This document shows, piece after piece, positions 1,910 through 29,174 of a stretch of DNA of 47,965 nucleotides. Position 1 is the stretch's first letter. Each line of letters starts with the position of its first letter. The notes under the pieces were generated by a model, which saw only the letters and a program-made list of their open reading frames with translations, did no database searches and was not told where the DNA came from. This stretch comes from a virus: positions 1 to 47,965 of the IMG/VR virus record IMGVR_UViG_3300029983_000036. One strand, written 5' to 3'. A program made the translations under genes and the position numbers.

Positions 1910-2541
1910 TAAAACGACTATACGAAATAACTATCAAAGATGTGATTTTATTAGACTCTACAAAGTCAGCAAGCCACTTAAAAAAGGTTGGATTAATCCC
2001 GATTTGGTTTTTTCGTAAACGTCTGGAAAAACTCGCAAATGATATCTTTGATTTAATCGGAGACAGAAACATAGTCGATGAACTTGAAAATGATTTTGAT
2101 AGAATTATGTCTTATCGAAGATTACAGATATTGGAGGCACTTTATAAATTGGTAGTTATTGAAATCCGGTTAAAATCACGGATTAATGTTTGGAAAATAA
2201 TTATCGGTAAGGACTACAAAGAGTCAGAGCAATTAAAAGAGGTATTGGCCGAAGTTTTAAAACATACAGGTATTGACATTAAAGAACTTGAAGACATTAA
2301 AAAACTGAATGATTATATTGAATATCGAATTGATAAGCACAAAGAAATTTACCCAGACAAAAAACAGATATCAGAACAGGAAAAACAAACAGTAAGTCTT
2401 ATCAGGGTATTTTATTCAGTCTTTAATTTTATGGGTGAAATGTATAATGAAGATATGAGATTAATTACCTTCATTGAAATGAAAAAAGAAGCTGAGGATA
2501 GAGTAAAAAAATCTAAAGAACAAAACGATGGCCAAATCTAG
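1906..2541 (+). CDS. Possible tail assembly chaperone (211 aa)
   Basis: A helical, charged protein directly upstream of the tape measure gene, which it overlaps by 14 bases (2528-2541). In siphoviruses this slot encodes the chaperones that coat the tape measure during tail assembly. No sequence motif supports this beyond position and helical character. A run of seven A at about 2506 was noted, but no frameshifted extension is evident, because the other frame here is the tape measure start. Confidence 0.5.
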   Translation: MIKRLYEITIKDVILLDSTKSASHLKKVGLIPIWFFRKRLEKLANDIFDLIGDRNIVDELENDFDRIMSYRRLQILEALYKLVVIEIRLKSRINVWKIIIGKDYKESEQLKEVLAEVLKHTGIDIKELEDIKKLNDYIEYRIDKHKEIYPDKKQISEQEKQTVSLIRVFYSVFNFMGEMYNEDMRLITFIEMKKEAEDRVKKSKEQNDGQI

Positions 2542-5044
2542 CGAAATAACTAACCTTGAACAGGTAACCACCGCAATAGTCAATTCTGATAAGGCACTTT
2601 CAAACCTTGCAGGAACTTATTTAACCCTTGTTAAGAATATGGGTGACGCAACTGAAAAGGCCAAAACTCATACAAAAACCGTTGATGACTTAACCAAAGC
2701 GCAAAAGGAAGCTGCCGACGCTCAAAAAATACTTGATGCTGCAAACAAAGCACTGGCAGACTCAGAAGCAAAACTAAATAAGTTTGATAAAGATATTTAT
2801 GAACAAATTCAACGGAATAATAAAGCACTGGCAGATCAAAAGAAAGCCATTAATGATAAGATAAAAGCAGGTGACGCTGAAGAAGGTAGTCTTGTTAGGA
2901 TGCGTCAAAAGCTTTCTGAACTCACAAAGGAATACGATAAAACCGGAACAAGAACAAAGGCGGCAGCCGATGAAATAAATAAATTAAGTCGTGAAATTGG
3001 AAAGGCAGAGGCTGAAACAAATAGGCATCAACGCGGAGTTGGTGGTTATGCAGATCAATTAGGCCATTTAAGTGAAAAATATAGTTCGCTTCCGGGGCCA
3101 ATCGGAGATGTTGCCGAAGCATCTGGAAGATTTATGTCAATATTAACAAAGCTTGGACCAATAGGATTAATTATTGTAGGAGGTTTGACCGCAATTGGAG
3201 CCCCATTATATTCATTTCTTACAAAATCAGAAGAAGGAGTTGAACTATTAGAAAGAAAAGTTGCAGGATTTAAGGCTGCATGGGGTGTATTGGTTGGTGA
3301 AATGATTAGTGGTGGTGAAAAAATGGCAAGTGTTTTCAATAAACCGGAAGAAAAAATAGGTACTTTCTGGACAAAAATACTATCTCTTTTAGGGCCGGCA
3401 TGGCTAGGAGTTGGTGCAAACATGGATATAGCATCAAATTCAGCCGAAAAATATACAGGAAAACTTCAAGAGATGGAAAAATCAGAAATAAAATTGATTG
3501 TTCCACGTTCTGAGGCTAATCTCAAGATTAAAGAAGCTCGATTACTATACGCAGATGCAACAAAATCGTTAACTGAAAGAGTCGATGGTTTAAAAACAGC
3601 TGTTAAATTAGAAAATGAAACCGCAGAAGTTGAAGTAAATCATCAGCATGATGTAGTTGAAAATTTAAAGGTTATTAATAATTTAAAGAAAATATCCGGT
3701 CAACTCAGGAATGAAGATGATAGAAAATTACAAGAGGCTATTGCAAAAGAAAATGAACTTAGAACCGAAAGTGTAAGTAGACAAATTAGAGCTGCAAAAA
3801 GCATACAAACAGGAACAAAAGAACTTTTAGATCAGCAAAAAACTGATTTAGAAAAGGCTTTAAAGGATAAACTAAACATAATTGAACTAAACAACGATAA
3901 AGAGGTAAAATCAATTAATCAGGTACATATTGCCGGATTATCGACCGATGAAGAATATAAGAAAGATTTATCTAATCAGGAATCAAATTTTTTGAATGAT
4001 AAATTGAAATTATACAAGTCAGGGACTAAAGAATATGAAGACCTTGAACTAAAATTACAGGAATTAAGGATTAAATCAACAGACGAAAACGAAAAAGCAT
4101 TACTTGAAAAAGAAAAGGATGCAGCAAAAGAACGAATTGAAGTAAGAAAGGCCGAACAAAAAACTATTGAAGACTTGCTAAAAGAATCCGAGAAAGATGA
4201 AGAAAAAATAATGGATTCTTTGGACAAAGAAACTGAGGATAGAATCGCTAAAGAATTAAAAGATTCTGAAAAAGCAGCCGAAAAGAAAAAAGAGATAGCT
4301 GAAAAAGTCAAGGATATGCAAATACAGATTGCATCTGAGGCCGTAAATGGAGCCTTTGATTTAGGTTCATCAAAAAGAGATGCTGAACTTGACGCGCTCG
4401 ACAAGGAACGTGACAAAAAACTATCAAATGAAAAACTTACTGCTGCACAAAAAGAAAAGATAAATGAGGAATACGACAAAAAGGCCGCTGCAATAAAAAC
4501 AAAACAGGCTAAAGCTGATAAATTGCAGTCTATGTTTAATATTGCGCTTGATACATTTAAGGGATCGATGAAGGCTGTAGCAGAAAGTCCTGAAACTTTT
4601 GGGTTGCCATTTTTGCCTTGGGTTATCGCTCAGGGAGCATTGCAATTGGCTTTAGTTGCAGCCAAGCCTATTCCAAAATACAAAGACGGGGGAACTGCTG
4701 ATAAAGGCTTTGGAATATTTGGAGAAGCCGGACTCGAATTAATGTTCCCTAAAGCTGGAGGCGTGCTTATGGCAAACAAAGCCACCTACTTTGAAGGATC
4801 AAAATTCAAGGGGGCGCGAATTGTTTCAAATCCTGACACTGAAAAGATGATTGCAGCCGCTGAACGATCGGGGACTTCCGGGAGCCGGGGCATGACAGAC
4901 GATAGAATAGTAGAGGGGCTTGCAAGTTTGGAACGGACATTAAAAAACAAACCGGTTCAGATTGTCGACAAAGATCATAAAACTATTGGATTTGCAACAT
5001 CAAATAGTCAAACAATTTACTTGAATCGGATTTTAAGAAACTAA
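2528..5044 (+). CDS. Tail tape measure protein (838 aa)
   Basis: The protein determines tail length and is ejected with the DNA. The first 180 residues and roughly residues 310-680 are long charged coiled coils rich in Lys, Glu and Ala. A hydrophobic segment (about residues 203-232, LGPIGLIIVGGLTAIG) and a second one near 690-715 match the membrane-active parts of tape measure proteins. The end has the typical PKYKDGG, then FGEAGLELMFPK sequence, as in the C-termini of many tape measure proteins. At about 1.5 angstrom per helical residue, 838 residues suggest a tail of roughly 120 nm. Confidence 0.92.
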   Translation: MAKSSEITNLEQVTTAIVNSDKALSNLAGTYLTLVKNMGDATEKAKTHTKTVDDLTKAQKEAADAQKILDAANKALADSEAKLNKFDKDIYEQIQRNNKALADQKKAINDKIKAGDAEEGSLVRMRQKLSELTKEYDKTGTRTKAAADEINKLSREIGKAEAETNRHQRGVGGYADQLGHLSEKYSSLPGPIGDVAEASGRFMSILTKLGPIGLIIVGGLTAIGAPLYSFLTKSEEGVELLERKVAGFKAAWGVLVGEMISGGEKMASVFNKPEEKIGTFWTKILSLLGPAWLGVGANMDIASNSAEKYTGKLQEMEKSEIKLIVPRSEANLKIKEARLLYADATKSLTERVDGLKTAVKLENETAEVEVNHQHDVVENLKVINNLKKISGQLRNEDDRKLQEAIAKENELRTESVSRQIRAAKSIQTGTKELLDQQKTDLEKALKDKLNIIELNNDKEVKSINQVHIAGLSTDEEYKKDLSNQESNFLNDKLKLYKSGTKEYEDLELKLQELRIKSTDENEKALLEKEKDAAKERIEVRKAEQKTIEDLLKESEKDEEKIMDSLDKETEDRIAKELKDSEKAAEKKKEIAEKVKDMQIQIASEAVNGAFDLGSSKRDAELDALDKERDKKLSNEKLTAAQKEKINEEYDKKAAAIKTKQAKADKLQSMFNIALDTFKGSMKAVAESPETFGLPFLPWVIAQGALQLALVAAKPIPKYKDGGTADKGFGIFGEAGLELMFPKAGGVLMANKATYFEGSKFKGARIVSNPDTEKMIAAAERSGTSGSRGMTDDRIVEGLASLERTLKNKPVQIVDKDHKTIGFATSNSQTIYLNRILRN

Positions 5045-10231: not shown

Positions 10232-10909
10232 ATGATAGGAATACCAATTGACATAGGTTTTAAATCAACTACCGGAAGACCAATCCAGGAAGCATATCTA
10301 AATAACAATGTTCCGTGGGCTTCGGAGGCTGAGGCGTTGGCGGGAATTGACATAGGATTAAGACATAAATTTATGCCTTTAATTATTGTTGATCAACTTT
10401 ATTGGTTTAAAGCAGATTGTACAACATTAGAACCTGTTACATTTCCTGCAACCGTCAAGGCAGAAGATGTAACGCTTGCTGATTTGGCCGGAATTTTTGA
10501 CGCTGAAAATGTAGAGGATGCACTCGCAGAAGTTATGGGATTTGCAAACGCCCTCTATATAATTATTCAAGACTTATTAAAACTTAAACAAAATCCTTAT
10601 ACTATTAACTTTACTTCATCTTCTGGAAGTGTTGCAACCAGAATATCCGCCGCAATTGAAACAACAGACTACCCTACCGGATGGACATTGGAGGTTGATG
10701 ATACTTACAACTTACTTGTAACTCATAATTTAACCGGAAGAAAGATAGTTGATATAAAAGTATTTGAAATCAACGGTTCGGCTGAACGTATGTTGAGCTT
10801 TGATCGTGGAACTGCTTATACGGGAGTTGTAGGAAATGGTTTAACAGTGCTAATAGAAGGTTTTGCACCTAATCCGCTACCTATGAGGGTAGAACTAATA
10901 TTTAACTAA
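10232..10909 (+). CDS. Probable tail fibre protein (225 aa)
   Basis: The N-terminal part (KSTTGRPIQEAYL, VPWASEAEALAGI, GLRHKFMPLIIVDQLYWFK) reads like attachment domains of Bacteroidota phage fibres, and residues 130-225 look like a beta-rich head domain. A helical stretch near 95-115 could be a trimer-forming coiled coil. It starts two bases after a duplicated leader and is followed at 2 bases by the next gene. The fibre role is from position and composition. Confidence 0.5.
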   Translation: MIGIPIDIGFKSTTGRPIQEAYLNNNVPWASEAEALAGIDIGLRHKFMPLIIVDQLYWFKADCTTLEPVTFPATVKAEDVTLADLAGIFDAENVEDALAEVMGFANALYIIIQDLLKLKQNPYTINFTSSSGSVATRISAAIETTDYPTGWTLEVDDTYNLLVTHNLTGRKIVDIKVFEINGSAERMLSFDRGTAYTGVVGNGLTVLIEGFAPNPLPMRVELIFN

Positions 10910-10911
10910 AA

Positions 10912-11592
10912 ATGAGTGATTTATCGAAATATAATACATCTTCGGCGTGGTTTACAATTGCTCAATCAGTTTATCAGATTGACAGGGAAACACCTTTAAC
11001 CGCAGCAACGTACGGAATAAAGGTAAATGCAATTGACACCAATAATATTGGGGCTAATCTCAAAGATGCTGATTACGCTTTCACTGATTTTGTCGGAGTT
11101 CCTTACTTAGTTATTTCTACCGGAGTTGGTACGATATTAGTAAGTGACGTTTTTAAACAGGGTTGCCCGACTTCCGGTAAAATGGGAATAGTTCACAAGT
11201 CAGCTTATAAGGGATATTCTATTTTACTTCCTACCGAACTACTTTATAGACTTCATCCAATTGCGGTCAGCAATAACAATAAATTTTCAATGTCAGTTCT
11301 TTGGGGCAATGATCCAAACGGGCGGAGAATAGAATTTACAGATGTTTATAGCCCAGAAATTTCAAATTATAGAGAATCATTGGAAGACTCAAACAATGTT
11401 TCTTTTAACCCGATGCAGGACTACGGCCAAAATCCTCAGTTTGAAGTCTGGCAATTTGTTGAAGCAGGTAAATATTCCAGACTTCCTATTGATCCGCAGT
11501 TAACGCTTTCTTCAATTGACGGATTAATAGATTCTGTGTTATTTTCTGGAACCGGCGAATTAATTTCAGGATACATTTTAATAAAAAATTGA
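10912..11592 (+). CDS. Probable fibre-associated structural protein (226 aa)
   Basis: Soluble, beta-rich and rich in Ser, Asn and aromatics, with no signal peptide. It sits tightly between the fibre-like gene ending at 10909 and an exported protein starting at 11594, in the same short-gap operon. No motif is recognised. The role is assigned only from its neighbours. Confidence 0.5.
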   Translation: MSDLSKYNTSSAWFTIAQSVYQIDRETPLTAATYGIKVNAIDTNNIGANLKDADYAFTDFVGVPYLVISTGVGTILVSDVFKQGCPTSGKMGIVHKSAYKGYSILLPTELLYRLHPIAVSNNNKFSMSVLWGNDPNGRRIEFTDVYSPEISNYRESLEDSNNVSFNPMQDYGQNPQFEVWQFVEAGKYSRLPIDPQLTLSSIDGLIDSVLFSGTGELISGYILIKN

Positions 11593-11593
11593 T

Positions 11594-12199
11594 ATGAAAA
11601 AATTATTCACAATTGTATTTATTTTGGTCGGATTCATTGCACATTCGCAAAATGCAAGTCCGTTACCAAATTCATCTATCAAAAAATTAATTGCTCCGAA
11701 CAATCCTATTTTTTACTACAATACTGCTGATTCTGCTGTTTGGATGTTCAAGGGGCAACACGCATGGAATAAGTTTGACTTAAGCAATACCAACGAACTC
11801 GATTCAATCTATTGTACAAATACATCACTTTGGTACAGTAATCGCGATACACTGACAATATTAACCGATCAAGATGTAACGCCATATTCTGCAACGGCAA
11901 ATACTAACTATACTCACAATGTTTCAGCACACATAAACGCGAACATTTCAACAAATACAAATATTTCAATCACGCTTTCAAATCTAAATAATGGAAAAAC
12001 TGGAAATATTGAAATAACATACACCGGGGCCGCTGTGGTTACTTTCATCGTTGGGTCGAGTTACACGCTGAATGTTTCACCAAACATTTTAGGAACTATC
12101 ACTAATGCCCACACAAATACTTTGAAATCAAAAAGTTCAGGTACTTATATTACAAGCTATTACAGATCAGGAAATAATATTTACATAAACGGAAGGTAA
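11594..12199 (+). CDS. Exported protein in the fibre region (201 aa)
   Basis: Residues 1-19 form a clear signal peptide (MKKLFTIVFILVGFIAHS followed by QN), so the product should be exported by Sec. The rest is Asn/Thr-rich and beta-like, with a repetitive stretch around 105-150. A secretion signal on a gene inside a tail operon is unusual. Possible roles are surface display during infection or superinfection control, both inferred. Its stop overlaps the next start. Confidence 0.6.
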   Translation: MKKLFTIVFILVGFIAHSQNASPLPNSSIKKLIAPNNPIFYYNTADSAVWMFKGQHAWNKFDLSNTNELDSIYCTNTSLWYSNRDTLTILTDQDVTPYSATANTNYTHNVSAHINANISTNTNISITLSNLNNGKTGNIEITYTGAAVVTFIVGSSYTLNVSPNILGTITNAHTNTLKSKSSGTYITSYYRSGNNIYINGR

Positions 12200-12942
12200 T
12201 GAAAAAGATATTTTTTTTAACTGTATTTTTTTTGATGATTATTTCATCATGTAACTGTCAACAATATTCTAACTTTTTTTGGAGTTACCCACAAGAACAG
12301 CAAATTACACCAGTAAAATATGGATATCTTTATAATTGGTATGCAGTAACTTACAGCACTGGAGGAGCAAGTATTGCTCCGGTTGGATGGCATGTTCCTA
12401 CTAGATTAGAATTTTATGCACTTGGCTTGACATTAGGTGGTGCAAATTACGCAGGAGGTAAGCTTAAAGAAACTGGATATGATTATTGGAATTCGCCAAA
12501 TACTGGCGCAACGAATGGATATAACTATGTTCTTCGAGGTACCGGATTAAGAAATGAAACAGGTTCGTTTTCAGGAATAAATCAGGTTTGTTATTTATGG
12601 GCTTCAAATAGCTACGATGCAACTTACGCATATTGTTGTCAGGCCGCTGTTTATAATTCATCATATTTTGGATGGCAGGCATTAATATTTAAGGTTCAGG
12701 GATGTCCTATCAGATTAATAAAAGATGATTCAATAGACCCTGGTATATTAATAGATTACGACGGTAATATTTATGCAACAGTAAAAATAGGTTCTCAAGT
12801 ATGGACTGTTCAGAATTTTATATGTACTCATTTTAATGATGGTACGTCAATAACAGAAGTTCAAAATTCAACTACTTGGAGTTCTTTAACTTCATCAGCA
12901 AGATGTGTGTATAATAATGATGAAAGCAACGCAAAAAAATAA
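12199..12942 (+). CDS. FISUMP-type lipoprotein with the domain in swapped order (247 aa)
   Basis: Residues 1-18 are a lipoprotein signal ending at Cys18 (IISSC), so the product should be lipid-anchored. Residues 41-180 match the second half of the Fibrobacter succinogenes major paralogous (FISUMP) domain: YGYLYNWYAV, IAPVGWHVPT, GGKLKETG, then W-rich blocks. Residues 186-245 match the first half (DYDGNIYATVKIG, QVWTVQNF, DGTSI, CVYNND). The halves are in reverse order, so this is either a permuted domain or a tandem array cut at both ends; the reading frame stops just after an A7 run. The C-type-lectin fold suggests ligand binding. Confidence 0.75.
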   Translation: MKKIFFLTVFFLMIISSCNCQQYSNFFWSYPQEQQITPVKYGYLYNWYAVTYSTGGASIAPVGWHVPTRLEFYALGLTLGGANYAGGKLKETGYDYWNSPNTGATNGYNYVLRGTGLRNETGSFSGINQVCYLWASNSYDATYAYCCQAAVYNSSYFGWQALIFKVQGCPIRLIKDDSIDPGILIDYDGNIYATVKIGSQVWTVQNFICTHFNDGTSITEVQNSTTWSSLTSSARCVYNNDESNAKK

Positions 12943-13016
12943 TAGTGCTTTATAACATACTTTAAAAAATATATTTACTTTTATAGTGTTTTTTTAACAT
13001 TAAATAATCATCAATC
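12943..13016 (+). promoter_or_regulatory. Intergenic leader with weak promoter-like box
   Basis: The 74-base gap is very A/T-rich. TACTTTTA at 12976-12983 differs from the TAnnTTTG consensus only at the last base, and it is one of few gaps in this operon. It could start a transcript for the genes from 13017. Confidence 0.3.
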
Positions 13017-13657: not shown

Positions 13658-15361
13658 ATGCCAGGAATAAACACACATATAGGTTTGGGGGTAGTTAAAC
13701 TAGGGACAAATATTAGCTATCCATCGATAGTTCCAACGGACTTATCAAACCTTGCATTGTGGTTAAGGTCGGATGATGTTGTTGATTCATCGGGCAAGGC
13801 ATCGCAGTTGACCGACCTGTAGGGTAACAATCATCATGCAGTTGGTGCAGGAGTTGATAATTATCCAACTATTACGGCAAATTCCTTAAACGGGCATAAT
13901 AAAATAACTTTTAATGGGGTGAAAAATAGGTTGATAACTGACATTTTTACAATCGCCCAACCATATACTATTTACATGGTTTCAAAGTTTTTATCGTCAA
14001 CACCAGACAGGGCGCAATGTGGCACACCAGCTACGCCTTACACTGCATTAATTTATCTTATGGGTGGAACCCCTGTTGGTAGATTTGGGATTAATGCTGG
14101 TGCATCTGCGGTGATCGAAACAGCATATTCTACCGATTTGAGTTGTTATTGTCAGGTGGTTAGAGCTGCAACTTCAGAATTTATTAGAAATGGCGCAAGT
14201 AAGGTTACTACAACAGTTGGCTCAAACAATATTACAAAAGGCATCGAAATAGGTGGTTATGCAAACTTGGATACAGCTTGTTGTAATTTCGATTTTTATG
14301 AATTAATAATTTACTCAGGAGCGCATACGGGATATGAAAAAATGCAAGTAATGGACTATTTGCAAGAACGTTATGCAACCAATTTTGGAGTAATGAAAGA
14401 TTCACCCTATAATCTCAAAGAAAAGTATGATGGAATAATGCTTAATTCTGTTGATTATAAGGATGAAACTACATATAAAAGAAAAATGGCATTTGCCAAA
14501 TATGAGTTTTACACGACCGATACTAATATTTTGATCAAAGCAAACCCCACGTTGCAACTAGGTGGTTCTGGGAGTTCTTTGCTTACCGTCTTTATTGATA
14601 ATGTATATTTTGCACAATATTATCTATATGCTTTCACCGAAAAAATTATATTCCTTCCTGTCGGTAATAAAAAAGTTACCTTAATGGAGGGTACTCAGGC
14701 GGGTGTATCAGGATTTGATTCTGTTGTGGGAACATTTTTGACATCGGTAAAGTGTAAGAATATCACAAAAATAAACGAGGTGTCACATCCTGAAAAACTG
14801 GTATGTATTGGCGATTCAATTTCTGTGAGTGATGCTGCAACAATACCTGAAACGCAGGGATTTGTAAGACTTTTTGAAATTGAAAATAGTAAAAATATTG
14901 CCTCTTTGGGATTTGGTTTTGGTCAAATAAAACATTTTGCAGGCACATCTCCACTTGTCACCAGAACAATAGGATATTTGACTTCATTATTTGCCCTTAC
15001 AACAACTCGAAAAATTGTACTAATTGAGGCAGCTACTAACGATTGGGGTGTCGCAAATACAGCAGCTGCAACTTTTGAGGGTTATTATGCGGCCTTATTG
15101 GATGCTATTCACACACTTGATGCAACTATTGAGGTATTTTGTTTGAGTCCACTTATAAGAGGTGACGCAAAAGAAGACGCAACACTTGATGATTACCGCA
15201 CTCGTATAGCTTCATTGTGTACAGCAAGATCAACTTATTGCACTCATATCGTAGGGAAAACAATTCTTACTTATCCTGATGATTTTGCAAATGCAGTACA
15301 CCCACACACGGCAGGGCATAAAAAATTGAAAGACGCTGTATATGCGGTAATTTATCCTTAG
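13658..15361 (+). pseudogene. LamG-like plus SGNH/GDSL esterase, probable receptor-binding protein, with in-frame TAG
   Basis: The frame from ATG 13658 to TAG 15361 has 567 sense codons apart from an amber at codon 55 (13820-13822, within TDL-stop-GNNHHAVG). Similar proteins usually have a sense codon in this DLxGNN turn. Residues 25-250 look like a LamG/concanavalin-type sugar-binding domain. The C-terminal domain is an SGNH hydrolase: GDS near residue 385, ATNDW near 460, and HPHTAGH near 550 with the catalytic His. It would deacylate a surface glycan at adsorption. A shorter product could start at GTG 13919. Confidence 0.75.
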
Positions 15362-17510: not shown

Positions 17511-17873
17511 ATGAAGCCAATCCTATTAATTTCGGTTCTGCTTATTTGCCTTCAGTCTACGTCGCAGAACCGATTTGAAAAAGAGTTTGCTGAAGCTGAT
17601 TCTGTATTTTACTCGAAGGCAGAACCGAAAACGGTAAATGATTCGATTCCTGAAATGATCATGAGAAAGGCTTTTGACAACTTATTCAAAGCTCGTAAAG
17701 AATTGGAAAAAGCAATTAAGGCATATCAACGTAGAGACCTAGATGTTAAGGGCGACAAATACAATGCTATAAATTGCAAGGCTGCATTGAAACAGCTTGC
17801 ATATGCCTATAATGAATTATCTGCTATCTGGGAAAAAATGAAAGATGATAAACTAATAGGAACCAGTAAATGA
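17511..17873 (+). CDS. Exported helical protein, paralog of two genes near 42 kb (120 aa)
   Basis: A signal peptide (ILLISVLLICLQSTS) is followed by QNRFEKEFAEADSVF and then a helical domain ending LAYAYNELSAIWEK. The N-terminal part resembles the exported protein at 42208-42579 (QNRF...ADSAF), and the C-terminal part resembles the protein at 42006-42197 (AAYDEVSAIWEN). So this gene joins two modules that are separate and in reverse order elsewhere. It overlaps the endolysin start by 4 bases, which supports a role in lysis. Confidence 0.6.
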   Translation: MKPILLISVLLICLQSTSQNRFEKEFAEADSVFYSKAEPKTVNDSIPEMIMRKAFDNLFKARKELEKAIKAYQRRDLDVKGDKYNAINCKAALKQLAYAYNELSAIWEKMKDDKLIGTSK

Positions 17874-18340
17874 TTTACAACATTTCAGATCACATTACCT
17901 TTCAGGAGGCTATTTCTAGCTCAACAGCAGAGCGTTTAGGAATAAGTAACATTCCAGATGCCTCGCAGTTAAAAAACATGATAGAACTAGCTGAAAACAT
18001 ATTTGAGCCATTAAGGGCCGGACTAGGGAATAGACCTATACACATCAACTCTTTTTTTAGATGTGAAGAACTTAATAAAGTAGTTGGAGGTGCTAAGAAT
18101 AGCCAACACACAGCAATAAATGGAGCCGCAATGGATATCTGTTTACTTTTCGGAGGATCGAATAAAGACATATTCAATTACATCAAAAACAATCTTGCTT
18201 TCGATCAGTTAATTTCTGAATTTCCAGATGAACAAGAAAATCCTACATGGGTTCACGTTTCATGGAATACCGGAAATAACAGAATGAATATTTTAAAATC
18301 TGAAAAGAAAGACGGTAACACCGTATATGTTTCGATTTGA
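17870..18340 (+). CDS. Endolysin, M15-type peptidase (156 aa)
   Basis: A D-Ala-D-Ala or L-Ala-D-Glu type peptidase that cuts peptidoglycan cross-links. INSFFR (residues 59-64) and LNKVVGGAKNSQH lead to zinc ligands His80 and Asp89; FDQLISEF (residues 111-118) holds a likely catalytic acid, and WVHVSW gives His129. The spacing between His80 and the GxAxD block is longer than the usual SxHxxGxAxD by two residues. No signal peptide, so it needs a holin-like partner from the upstream membrane genes. Confidence 0.85.
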   Translation: MIYNISDHITFQEAISSSTAERLGISNIPDASQLKNMIELAENIFEPLRAGLGNRPIHINSFFRCEELNKVVGGAKNSQHTAINGAAMDICLLFGGSNKDIFNYIKNNLAFDQLISEFPDEQENPTWVHVSWNTGNNRMNILKSEKKDGNTVYVSI

Positions 18341-27819: not shown

Positions 27820-28053
27820 CTAATCGTTGTCAATTATCCACTTAACATCAAATAAATTTGTTATTTCTCTCGTTTTAACAACACCCGGATAAGTCTTTCC
27901 AACAGATTTTGCATATCTGGGTATCGTCTTTAAATTTAGATAATCTCCTTCCAGTTTAATAAGTTCAACCAACCCAGCATTACTCCACCGGCCTTCGTGT
28001 ATAGCCTGTCCGAGTTTATGAATTGCTTTTTGTTCGTACTCAGTAAGTTGCAT
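27820..28053 (-). CDS. Small HTH-like protein, copy 2, intact (77 aa)
   Basis: ATG 28053 is chosen by comparison with copy 1 at 7298-7531; the track-length extension to 28128 would run through the array border. The protein (HKLGQAIHEGRWSN, AKSVGKTYPGVVK) matches copy 1 nearly end to end but has Glu where copy 1 has TAA. It may be a small DNA-binding regulator. Its leader is the site of cassette array 3, just as the leader of copy 1 holds array 1. Confidence 0.65.
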   Translation of the reverse strand: MQLTEYEQKAIHKLGQAIHEGRWSNAGLVELIKLEGDYLNLKTIPRYAKSVGKTYPGVVKTREITNLFDVKWIIDND

Positions 28054-28068
28054 ATGGTTTAATTTATT

Positions 28069-28088
28069 AAACTGTTGATATAAACAAG
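28069..28088 (+). other. attI-like left junction of cassette array 3
   Basis: AAACTGTTGATATAAACAAG is followed by the crossover G|TT at 28088/28089. It matches the left junction of array 1 in 15 of 20 positions or more, and lies at the same distance from the start of the HTH-like gene. Confidence 0.6.
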
Positions 28089-28100
28089 TTATGCACAAGT

Positions 28101-29174
28101 TTAAGACAGTGCCAACTTTGAGAGCCATTGCAAATAAATTTCAGTCGCTATGTTTGCAGTCATTACTGGTGGAACACTCATTCCAATTAAATAGCCCCAT
28201 CCAGTTTTTGCAAAATCATAATCTTGTGGGTATGTTCCAACATTGCAAAATTCAGCCTTTGAAAGTCTAATAGGTTTTGAAAATAATAAACTTCCATGCC
28301 TACCTTTTGCAGTTAATGTTTGGCATACTTTATCTTCATAAACATAGCCTGTATTCATATCGCTTACTTTCATTCCACATCTTGCTTTACTTTCTGCAAT
28401 ATTGTTATCCCCATATTTTCGGTTATCCCATGCTTTTTTTGCATATTCTGTAATATTTTCGCCTTCGTAATCTGCAAATTCTTTAAAACATATTTCAGGT
28501 TCATTAAATTCCAGTTTTATTTCTGGCAAAATATCAAACAAGTTCATTTGCTTTAAAAAAGGTTTTGCCAAATCTTTACGCAATGCAATAAAAAATACCC
28601 TTTCGCGCCTTTGTGGTACACCCATTTTTGAAGCATCTAATAACCAATGTTGGCAATAATAACCAGCCAAATCAAATTCACGGTATATTTGTCTCACATA
28701 CTGTATTGCATCGCCTAAAAGCAAGCCTTTTACATTTTCAGCAACCACAACTTTTGGCTGTAATTTCTTAGCCAAATCAATAAAATCAAAAAACAAAGTA
28801 TCTAAAACCTGCATCGCCTGACCTTCTCTAAAAACTTTATCTTTGCCCCAGTCTTTTTCGCGGTTACCAGCCATTGAAAAACTACTACAAGGTGGTGAAC
28901 CGTCCAATATATCCAGTTCATAAAGTTCCTGCGGCAAATCTTCACGCATTTTAAAGGTCTGTATTGGTTCTAAAAAAGCATATTTAGGGTTGTGGTTTGC
29001 TTTGTATGCTTCAATCATTTTAGGGTCAATTTCATTGCATCCTATCACATCAAAACCAGCCAATTTATAACCCATAGTTGAGCCACCTCCACAAGCAAAG
29101 CAACTAAACACTTTACCTTTATCCTTTGTAAAGTTGGCATCTTTTAAAGTCCAACGATAAGAAAACCTGTGCAT
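28101..29174 (-). CDS. dcm: Cytosine-C5 DNA methyltransferase (357 aa), cassette 3.1
   Basis: Motif I FSCFACGGGSTMGYKLAGF, motif IV GSPPCSSFS (residues 92-100, catalytic Cys96), motif VI ENVKGLL (146-152) and motif VIII QRRERVFF (188-195) are all present, and the end GMSVPPVM resembles motif X. The start is set at ATG 29174, which lies inside the cassette core GTTATGCAC; the frame to 29219 would translate the hairpin. It probably methylates phage DNA against restriction. No paired endonuclease is seen. Confidence 0.9.
   Translation of the reverse strand: MHRFSYRWTLKDANFTKDKGKVFSCFACGGGSTMGYKLAGFDVIGCNEIDPKMIEAYKANHNPKYAFLEPIQTFKMREDLPQELYELDILDGSPPCSSFSMAGNREKDWGKDKVFREGQAMQVLDTLFFDFIDLAKKLQPKVVVAENVKGLLLGDAIQYVRQIYREFDLAGYYCQHWLLDASKMGVPQRRERVFFIALRKDLAKPFLKQMNLFDILPEIKLEFNEPEICFKEFADYEGENITEYAKKAWDNRKYGDNNIAESKARCGMKVSDMNTGYVYEDKVCQTLTAKGRHGSLLFSKPIRLSKAEFCNVGTYPQDYDFAKTGWGYLIGMSVPPVMTANIATEIYLQWLSKLALS

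Follow-up and report, generated by a model that had tools for sequence, protein, structure and literature searches.

Proteins with a FISUMP domain are common in Bacteroidota and Fibrobacterota and are little understood. A member of this sequence family is encoded at positions 12199-12942 of the viral DNA analysed here (47,965 nucleotides in all, hereafter the window). It resembles FISUMP/Fib_succ_major (PF09603, TIGR02145) in that both halves of the domain match, but it differs in that the halves stand in swapped order and in that most of its swapped phage relatives (75 of 80) carry no recognisable signal peptide. Another near relative is a phage protein already on record, WBC28475.1 of Rhodobacteraceae phage LS06-2018-MD05, which is annotated as a hypothetical protein and follows an annotated virion structural gene. 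It has the swapped order and the end point of the window protein, with which it shares 36% identity in an unbroken match covering 83% of the protein and 40% in a further alignment, but not the lipoprotein leader.

According to three reports, Fib_succ_major and DUF1566 domains are DGR targets in phages and bacteria and adopt a C-type lectin fold (PMC8143477, PMC4159848, PMC6642488). With DGR variable proteins of phages, such as Mtd of a Bordetella phage and the Fib_succ_major targets of Bacuni phages (PMC8143477), the window protein shares a probable fold and a probable adhesin role; unlike in those systems, the domain order is swapped and no reverse transcriptase was found. The RVT_1 search returned none in 50 records, the window included, and these records may be fragments. 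BLASTN of the gene against the window, likewise a possible fragment, gave no other match longer than 34 bases, and none of the 20 direct-repeat families shown, out of 35, lies over 12199-12942. Diversification by a DGR was set aside on these two grounds, the lack of a reverse transcriptase in the 50 records and the lack, within the window, of any repeat that resembles a template for the gene. A pairwise DNA comparison of close phages hints that certain FISUMP regions may have changed faster than the DNA on either side of them. Our searches of open-access papers brought up no account of FISUMP domains that are permuted or nested in one another.

The FISUMP domain of gene 12199-12942

The 247-residue product exceeds the cut-offs of both PF09603 (E 2.8e-24, 86.9 bits against a Pfam cut-off of 33.9) and TIGR02145 (E 9.2e-19, 68.8 bits against an NCBIfam cut-off of 41.65), yet its order departs from that of the profile, in which the N half comes first. 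The best PF09603 stretch aligns residues 28-175 with profile positions 37-187, and positions 1-55 are matched only downstream, at 12781-12987, in an alignment that extends a few codons beyond the stop. Since positions 37-187 precede positions 1-55, the two halves of the domain are swapped, and the product is accordingly a permuted relative of FISUMP rather than a plain member. No PHROGs family matches it. The half-domain HMMs that delimit the two halves in Table 1 were built from eight swapped proteins, that of the window among them.

The earlier note on this DNA, made from the letters and a list of open reading frames, had read a FISUMP domain in swapped order, preceded by a lipobox and ending just past a run of seven adenines. 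All of these readings hold: the family assignment and the order by the profile matches above, the lipobox as a lipobox-like ISSC recognised by eye and by a crude rule, and the end of the domain by the A7 run, after which come TAA and then TAG. The stop coincides exactly with the permutation point, and the domain therefore lacks no part.

Table 1. Features of gene 12199-12942 and of the three genes that precede it
Feature	Position	Strand	Basis or remark
Tail-fibre-operon gene	10232..10909	+	homologue at the same place in L027, E 4e-8
Tail-fibre-operon gene	10912..11592	+	homologue at the same place in L027, E 8e-22
Gene with type I-like signal peptide	11594..12199	+	the L027 protein with a swapped FISUMP domain has a match to its YYNTADSAVWMFKG part
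Swapped-order (circularly permuted) FISUMP protein, 247 aa	12199..12942	+	open frame; PF09603 and TIGR02145 over cut-off
Signal peptide with lipobox-like ISSC at its end (Cys18)	12199..12252	+	sequence; crude rule
Linker of 22 residues with NFFWS segment	12253..12318	+	by eye and alignment
S element (YGYLYNWYAV), with which the domain opens after the cut point	12319..12348	+	
C-terminal half of the FISUMP domain (S + c), standing first	12319..12735	+	half-domain HMM 1-133 of 134; PF09603 37-187
N-terminal half of the FISUMP domain, standing second	12751..12930	+	half-domain HMM 1-60 of 61; PF09603 1-55
A7 run	12933..12939	+	directly before the TAA stop at 12940-12942

AlphaFold2 (47 rows) returned a model of the protein with a mean pLDDT of 90.2 and a pTM of 0.82, the 10-residue blocks across residues 41-240 lying between 86 and 98. 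Judged by pLDDT and pTM, the model does not show two independent folds, and a single folded unit is predicted for the swapped domain. Structural matches to the model are weak. The top Foldseek match is the C-terminal domain of the Legionella adhesin Lcl (8q4e; E 0.34, Z 4.8 over 81 residues), and the likeness is qualified by the weakness of the match and by an identity of 12-14%. VIA-align gave Bd2740, Lcl, the phage tropism determinant Mtd and TvpA at a Z of 4-5 (best 5.3), and FGE is also among the weak matches of the predicted domain. We take the fold class behind these matches to be C-type-lectin-like. The FISUMP domain probably has a C-type-lectin-like fold, to which the weak matches to Lcl, Mtd, TvpA and FGE point, and the lectin-like fold that the note had mentioned is to that extent probable; the low scores may reflect aligners that keep chain order and so penalise a permutation. 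A search of the PDB with the permuted profile returned three matches, all to UHRF1 at E about 0.25, which we dismissed as chance.

Swapped and apparently nested domains in phages

Viral contigs were scanned with profiles seeded from WBC28475.1 and locus L008, from which we kept the best 80 of 111 relatives in one scan and the best 80 of 87 in a second scan that used double-domain proteins as well. Cellular loci, the best 80 of 177, came from a scan with the swapped-order query A2. To classify six-frame translations we treated the domain as three parts: S for the YGxLYNWY strand, c for what remains of the C half, and N. Identical domain stretches were removed before frames were counted. Within these best-80 lists the swapped-order queries, which favour swapped matches, yielded 81 distinct frames with c first and N last in 73 phage loci, together with 16 normal-order frames in 15 loci, 12 half-only frames and one mixed frame; with L005 added, the swapped frames number 82 and form 79 clusters at 90% identity. 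Among the 80 cellular loci (best 80 of 177, with A2 converted into peptide patterns that differed between the viral and cellular scans) there was no swapped frame, and 78 of these loci hold 115 frames of normal order, next to eight half-only frames and one mixed frame (NcN, in L226). A normal-order query on phages returned 66 normal frames in 54 loci, one half, one mixed frame and none that was swapped. The complete phage frames found by that query are all of normal order, and phages therefore carry both forms. Across 395 genomes from a single phylum (that of G050), with at most six candidates scored per genome, the swapped protein matched at E<=1e-25, a threshold that would miss distant swapped copies, in three places of two genomes, and all three are tandem genes of normal order. 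Of the 79 swapped frames whose stop falls inside the locus, 44 terminate no more than 15 residues from where the N half ends, and 14 encode a stand-alone protein with a single domain, as the window gene does.

On a tree of 152 domains, 84 of them swapped, the order label requires four changes against a mean of 50.1 after shuffling. The first tree search did not unite the swapped forms in one clade and left the inner branches poorly supported (90 of 149 open). When all swapped forms were constrained to one clade, the log-likelihood came out 113.75 higher than in the first search (AU p 0.984), and a single origin of the swapped forms is compatible with these results. The five rows nearest the window domain comprise four swapped phage domains and one cellular domain of normal order. 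Most likely the permutation arose once, in or near phages, and its source was probably a tandem array of normal-order domains. By sequence, the order S-c-N takes the place of N-S-c: a short loop connects the former ends, and the YNND / YGxLYNW junction is where the chain has been opened. The lineage as a whole may descend from an ancient tandem repeat.

Several relatives carry more than one copy. Wherever two c-N units follow each other with no S between them, two S strands stand in front, and this applies to all ten runs of this kind (L013, L014, L016, L018, L084, L087, L088, L090, L092 and L093). In L096 (5968-7932) and L097 (5318-7282), near-identical copies from two samples, three YGxLYNW strands are followed by three c-N units in both cases. 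Among the 78 one-unit runs the motif rule finds one S in 67, none in 10 and two in one; by eye, eight of the ten runs without a motif S show a variant, and the lone run with two is a chance match. In the double and triple runs the number of S strands in front equals the number of c-N units, which implies nested domains. Read directly from the order of the parts, S1 would pair with the last c-N unit, the other domain being inserted between them. AlphaFold2 gave no confident model of the L092 double, from 11 rows only (mean pLDDT 62.5, pTM 0.50). We regard as reasonably likely an account in which one ancient permutation gave rise to a phage-only lineage of tail adhesins with nested arrays of the forms S1[S2 c N]c N and S1[S2[S3 c N]c N]c N.

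Tail-cluster setting and leader

That the gene lies in a fibre operon, as had been proposed, is borne out by its surroundings. The four genes of Table 1, in the order listed, stand between a tape-measure gene (2528-5044) and an endolysin gene of M15 peptidase type (17870-18340). In L027, homologues of the first two follow each other in the same order and are succeeded by one fused protein, which joins a part similar to the product of gene 11594 (33% identity over 80 columns, E 1e-4 in a single comparison) to a swapped FISUMP domain. A more distant version of this gene order is found in L008, with a GH108 endolysin downstream. For gene 11594 itself, viral contigs yielded close matches in just two assemblies, the ones described below as identical to the window. 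This neighbourhood places the 12199-12942 protein in the distal tail cluster, so that both a position in the tail gene cluster and a link to fibre-like proteins are found for it. Terminase relatives at E<=1e-15 turned up in three of the 395 genomes scanned above, a kinship too remote to point to a host, and a tRNA search of the window phage found none.

Two other features of the window were seen in passing. At 13658-15361 on the plus strand, 54 codons are followed by a single in-frame TAG (13820-13822) and then by 512 codons with a GDSL/SGNH hydrolase domain; TAG closes 8 of the window's 44 long frames and so has not been recoded in general, and readthrough, a pseudogene or an internal start are each possible. 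Two pairs of direct repeats, 7268-7315/27790-27837 and 7520-7580/28044-28104, are 79% and 82% identical and share a spacing of about 20.5 kb. Their first copies lie between long frames and their second copies in or beside a short predicted frame (27820-28128), and they are possibly common regulatory regions.

The leader of the window protein, MKKIFFLTVFFLMIISSC, has a K-rich start and a hydrophobic run ahead of the ISSC. The crude rule mentioned above assigns a signal peptide to 96 of 112 normal-order cellular frames as against 5 of 80 swapped phage frames; it also finds one in 8 of 77 normal-order viral frames and in 66 of 778 phage-locus frames of at least 120 residues. A lipoprotein-type leader is present in two of the 80 swapped phage frames, those of the window and L099, and the leader-bearing swapped frames of L022, L027 and L108 are longer proteins. 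The window linker (SNFFWSYPQ) resembles the starts of leaderless relatives, MNFFWSYAK in L110 and MNNFFWS in L087, a likeness suggesting that an existing phage gene acquired the leader. A lipoprotein leader on a tail protein is odd, and phage DGR target proteins were without detectable signal peptides in another study (PMC6199706). The leader may well send some or all of the protein to the envelope of the infected cell, be it for delivery to the host surface or for assembly of fibres in the envelope.

At least two signal-peptide genes, often consecutive, lie at the distal end of the tail cluster in L022, L027, L099, L108, L111, L118 and the window (11594-12942); L118 has five, with the swapped FISUMP gene between the first and the second. 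To our knowledge, signal-peptide genes in the tail cluster are unusual for tailed phages. Near swapped FISUMP genes, the products of L118 9686-11221, L111 8029-12075 and L099 6654-7865 combine a signal peptide with starts resembling ATTYYVATNG or ATIYYVAKTG, and that of L099 matches a Pel9A-like beta-helix (PF22842, E 4.6e-7); these proteins are possible depolymerases.

Origin of the swap and role of the protein

The swapped order first noticed in the earlier note is real, and the two causes proposed for it are not supported. If a downstream half had been lost by frameshift at the A7 run, the position of the run directly before the stop would find an explanation. However, the domain does not restart in any frame after the run, the single swapped domain is predicted to be complete as it stands, relatives stop at the same point (the 44 of 79 given above), and two other assemblies are identical to the window over 12,741 bases; we give such a loss next to no credence. 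Two observations speak for recent capture of part of a present-day host tandem-repeat gene, the second weakly: bacterial tandem arrays do read c-N internally (NcNc frames, for example), and at third codon positions the gene has a GC of 0.19, the lowest value in a comparison of ten genes. The overall GC of the gene is nevertheless like that of the phage (0.333 versus 0.339), the 80 cellular loci (best 80 of 177) are devoid of swapped frames, one clade of swapped forms is compatible with the tree, and swapped phage domains make up four of the five nearest rows, all of which renders a recent capture very improbable. The swap is old and common to a phage lineage of probable tail adhesins, and is no recent accident.

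As to function, the operon position, the gene fusion and the fold argue that the protein is most likely a tail-fibre-tip adhesin, which would bind a glycan or protein on the host surface. The gene order and fusion in L027 and the weak matches to Bd2740, Lcl, Mtd and TvpA support this role, as does the absence of a leader from most swapped phage frames when only 16 of 112 normal-order cellular frames lack one. The lipobox-like leaders of the window and L099, together with the signal-peptide genes beside them in both, could also be accounted for if the phage encoded a host-surface lipoprotein for superinfection exclusion or receptor masking, in which the swapped adhesin domain was reused outside the virion. 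Against this, the L027 fusion links the domain to the operon's own fibre-like protein, the great majority of swapped frames are leaderless, and leaders also occur on the longer swapped-domain proteins of L022, L027 and L108, so that a leader alone is no mark of a surface lipoprotein. We consider such a surface lipoprotein rather unlikely, and hold it to be likely that the window protein belongs to a phage lineage founded by a single permutation, acts as an adhesin at the tail-fibre tip and, more tentatively, is directed in part or as a whole to the envelope by its leader. That the protein alters the host surface during infection, as the note had put forward, is possible.

The signal peptides of the tail cluster raise a separate question, namely where the fibres of these phages are assembled. 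If a single permutation marks the phage branch, the order of the halves would offer a simple way to separate phage adhesins from bacterial surface proteins in metagenomes. The nested array, if true, would be an unusual construction of a multi-domain adhesin, in which an outer domain becomes complete only once the inner one has been made, and the domains would thereby be held rigidly together.
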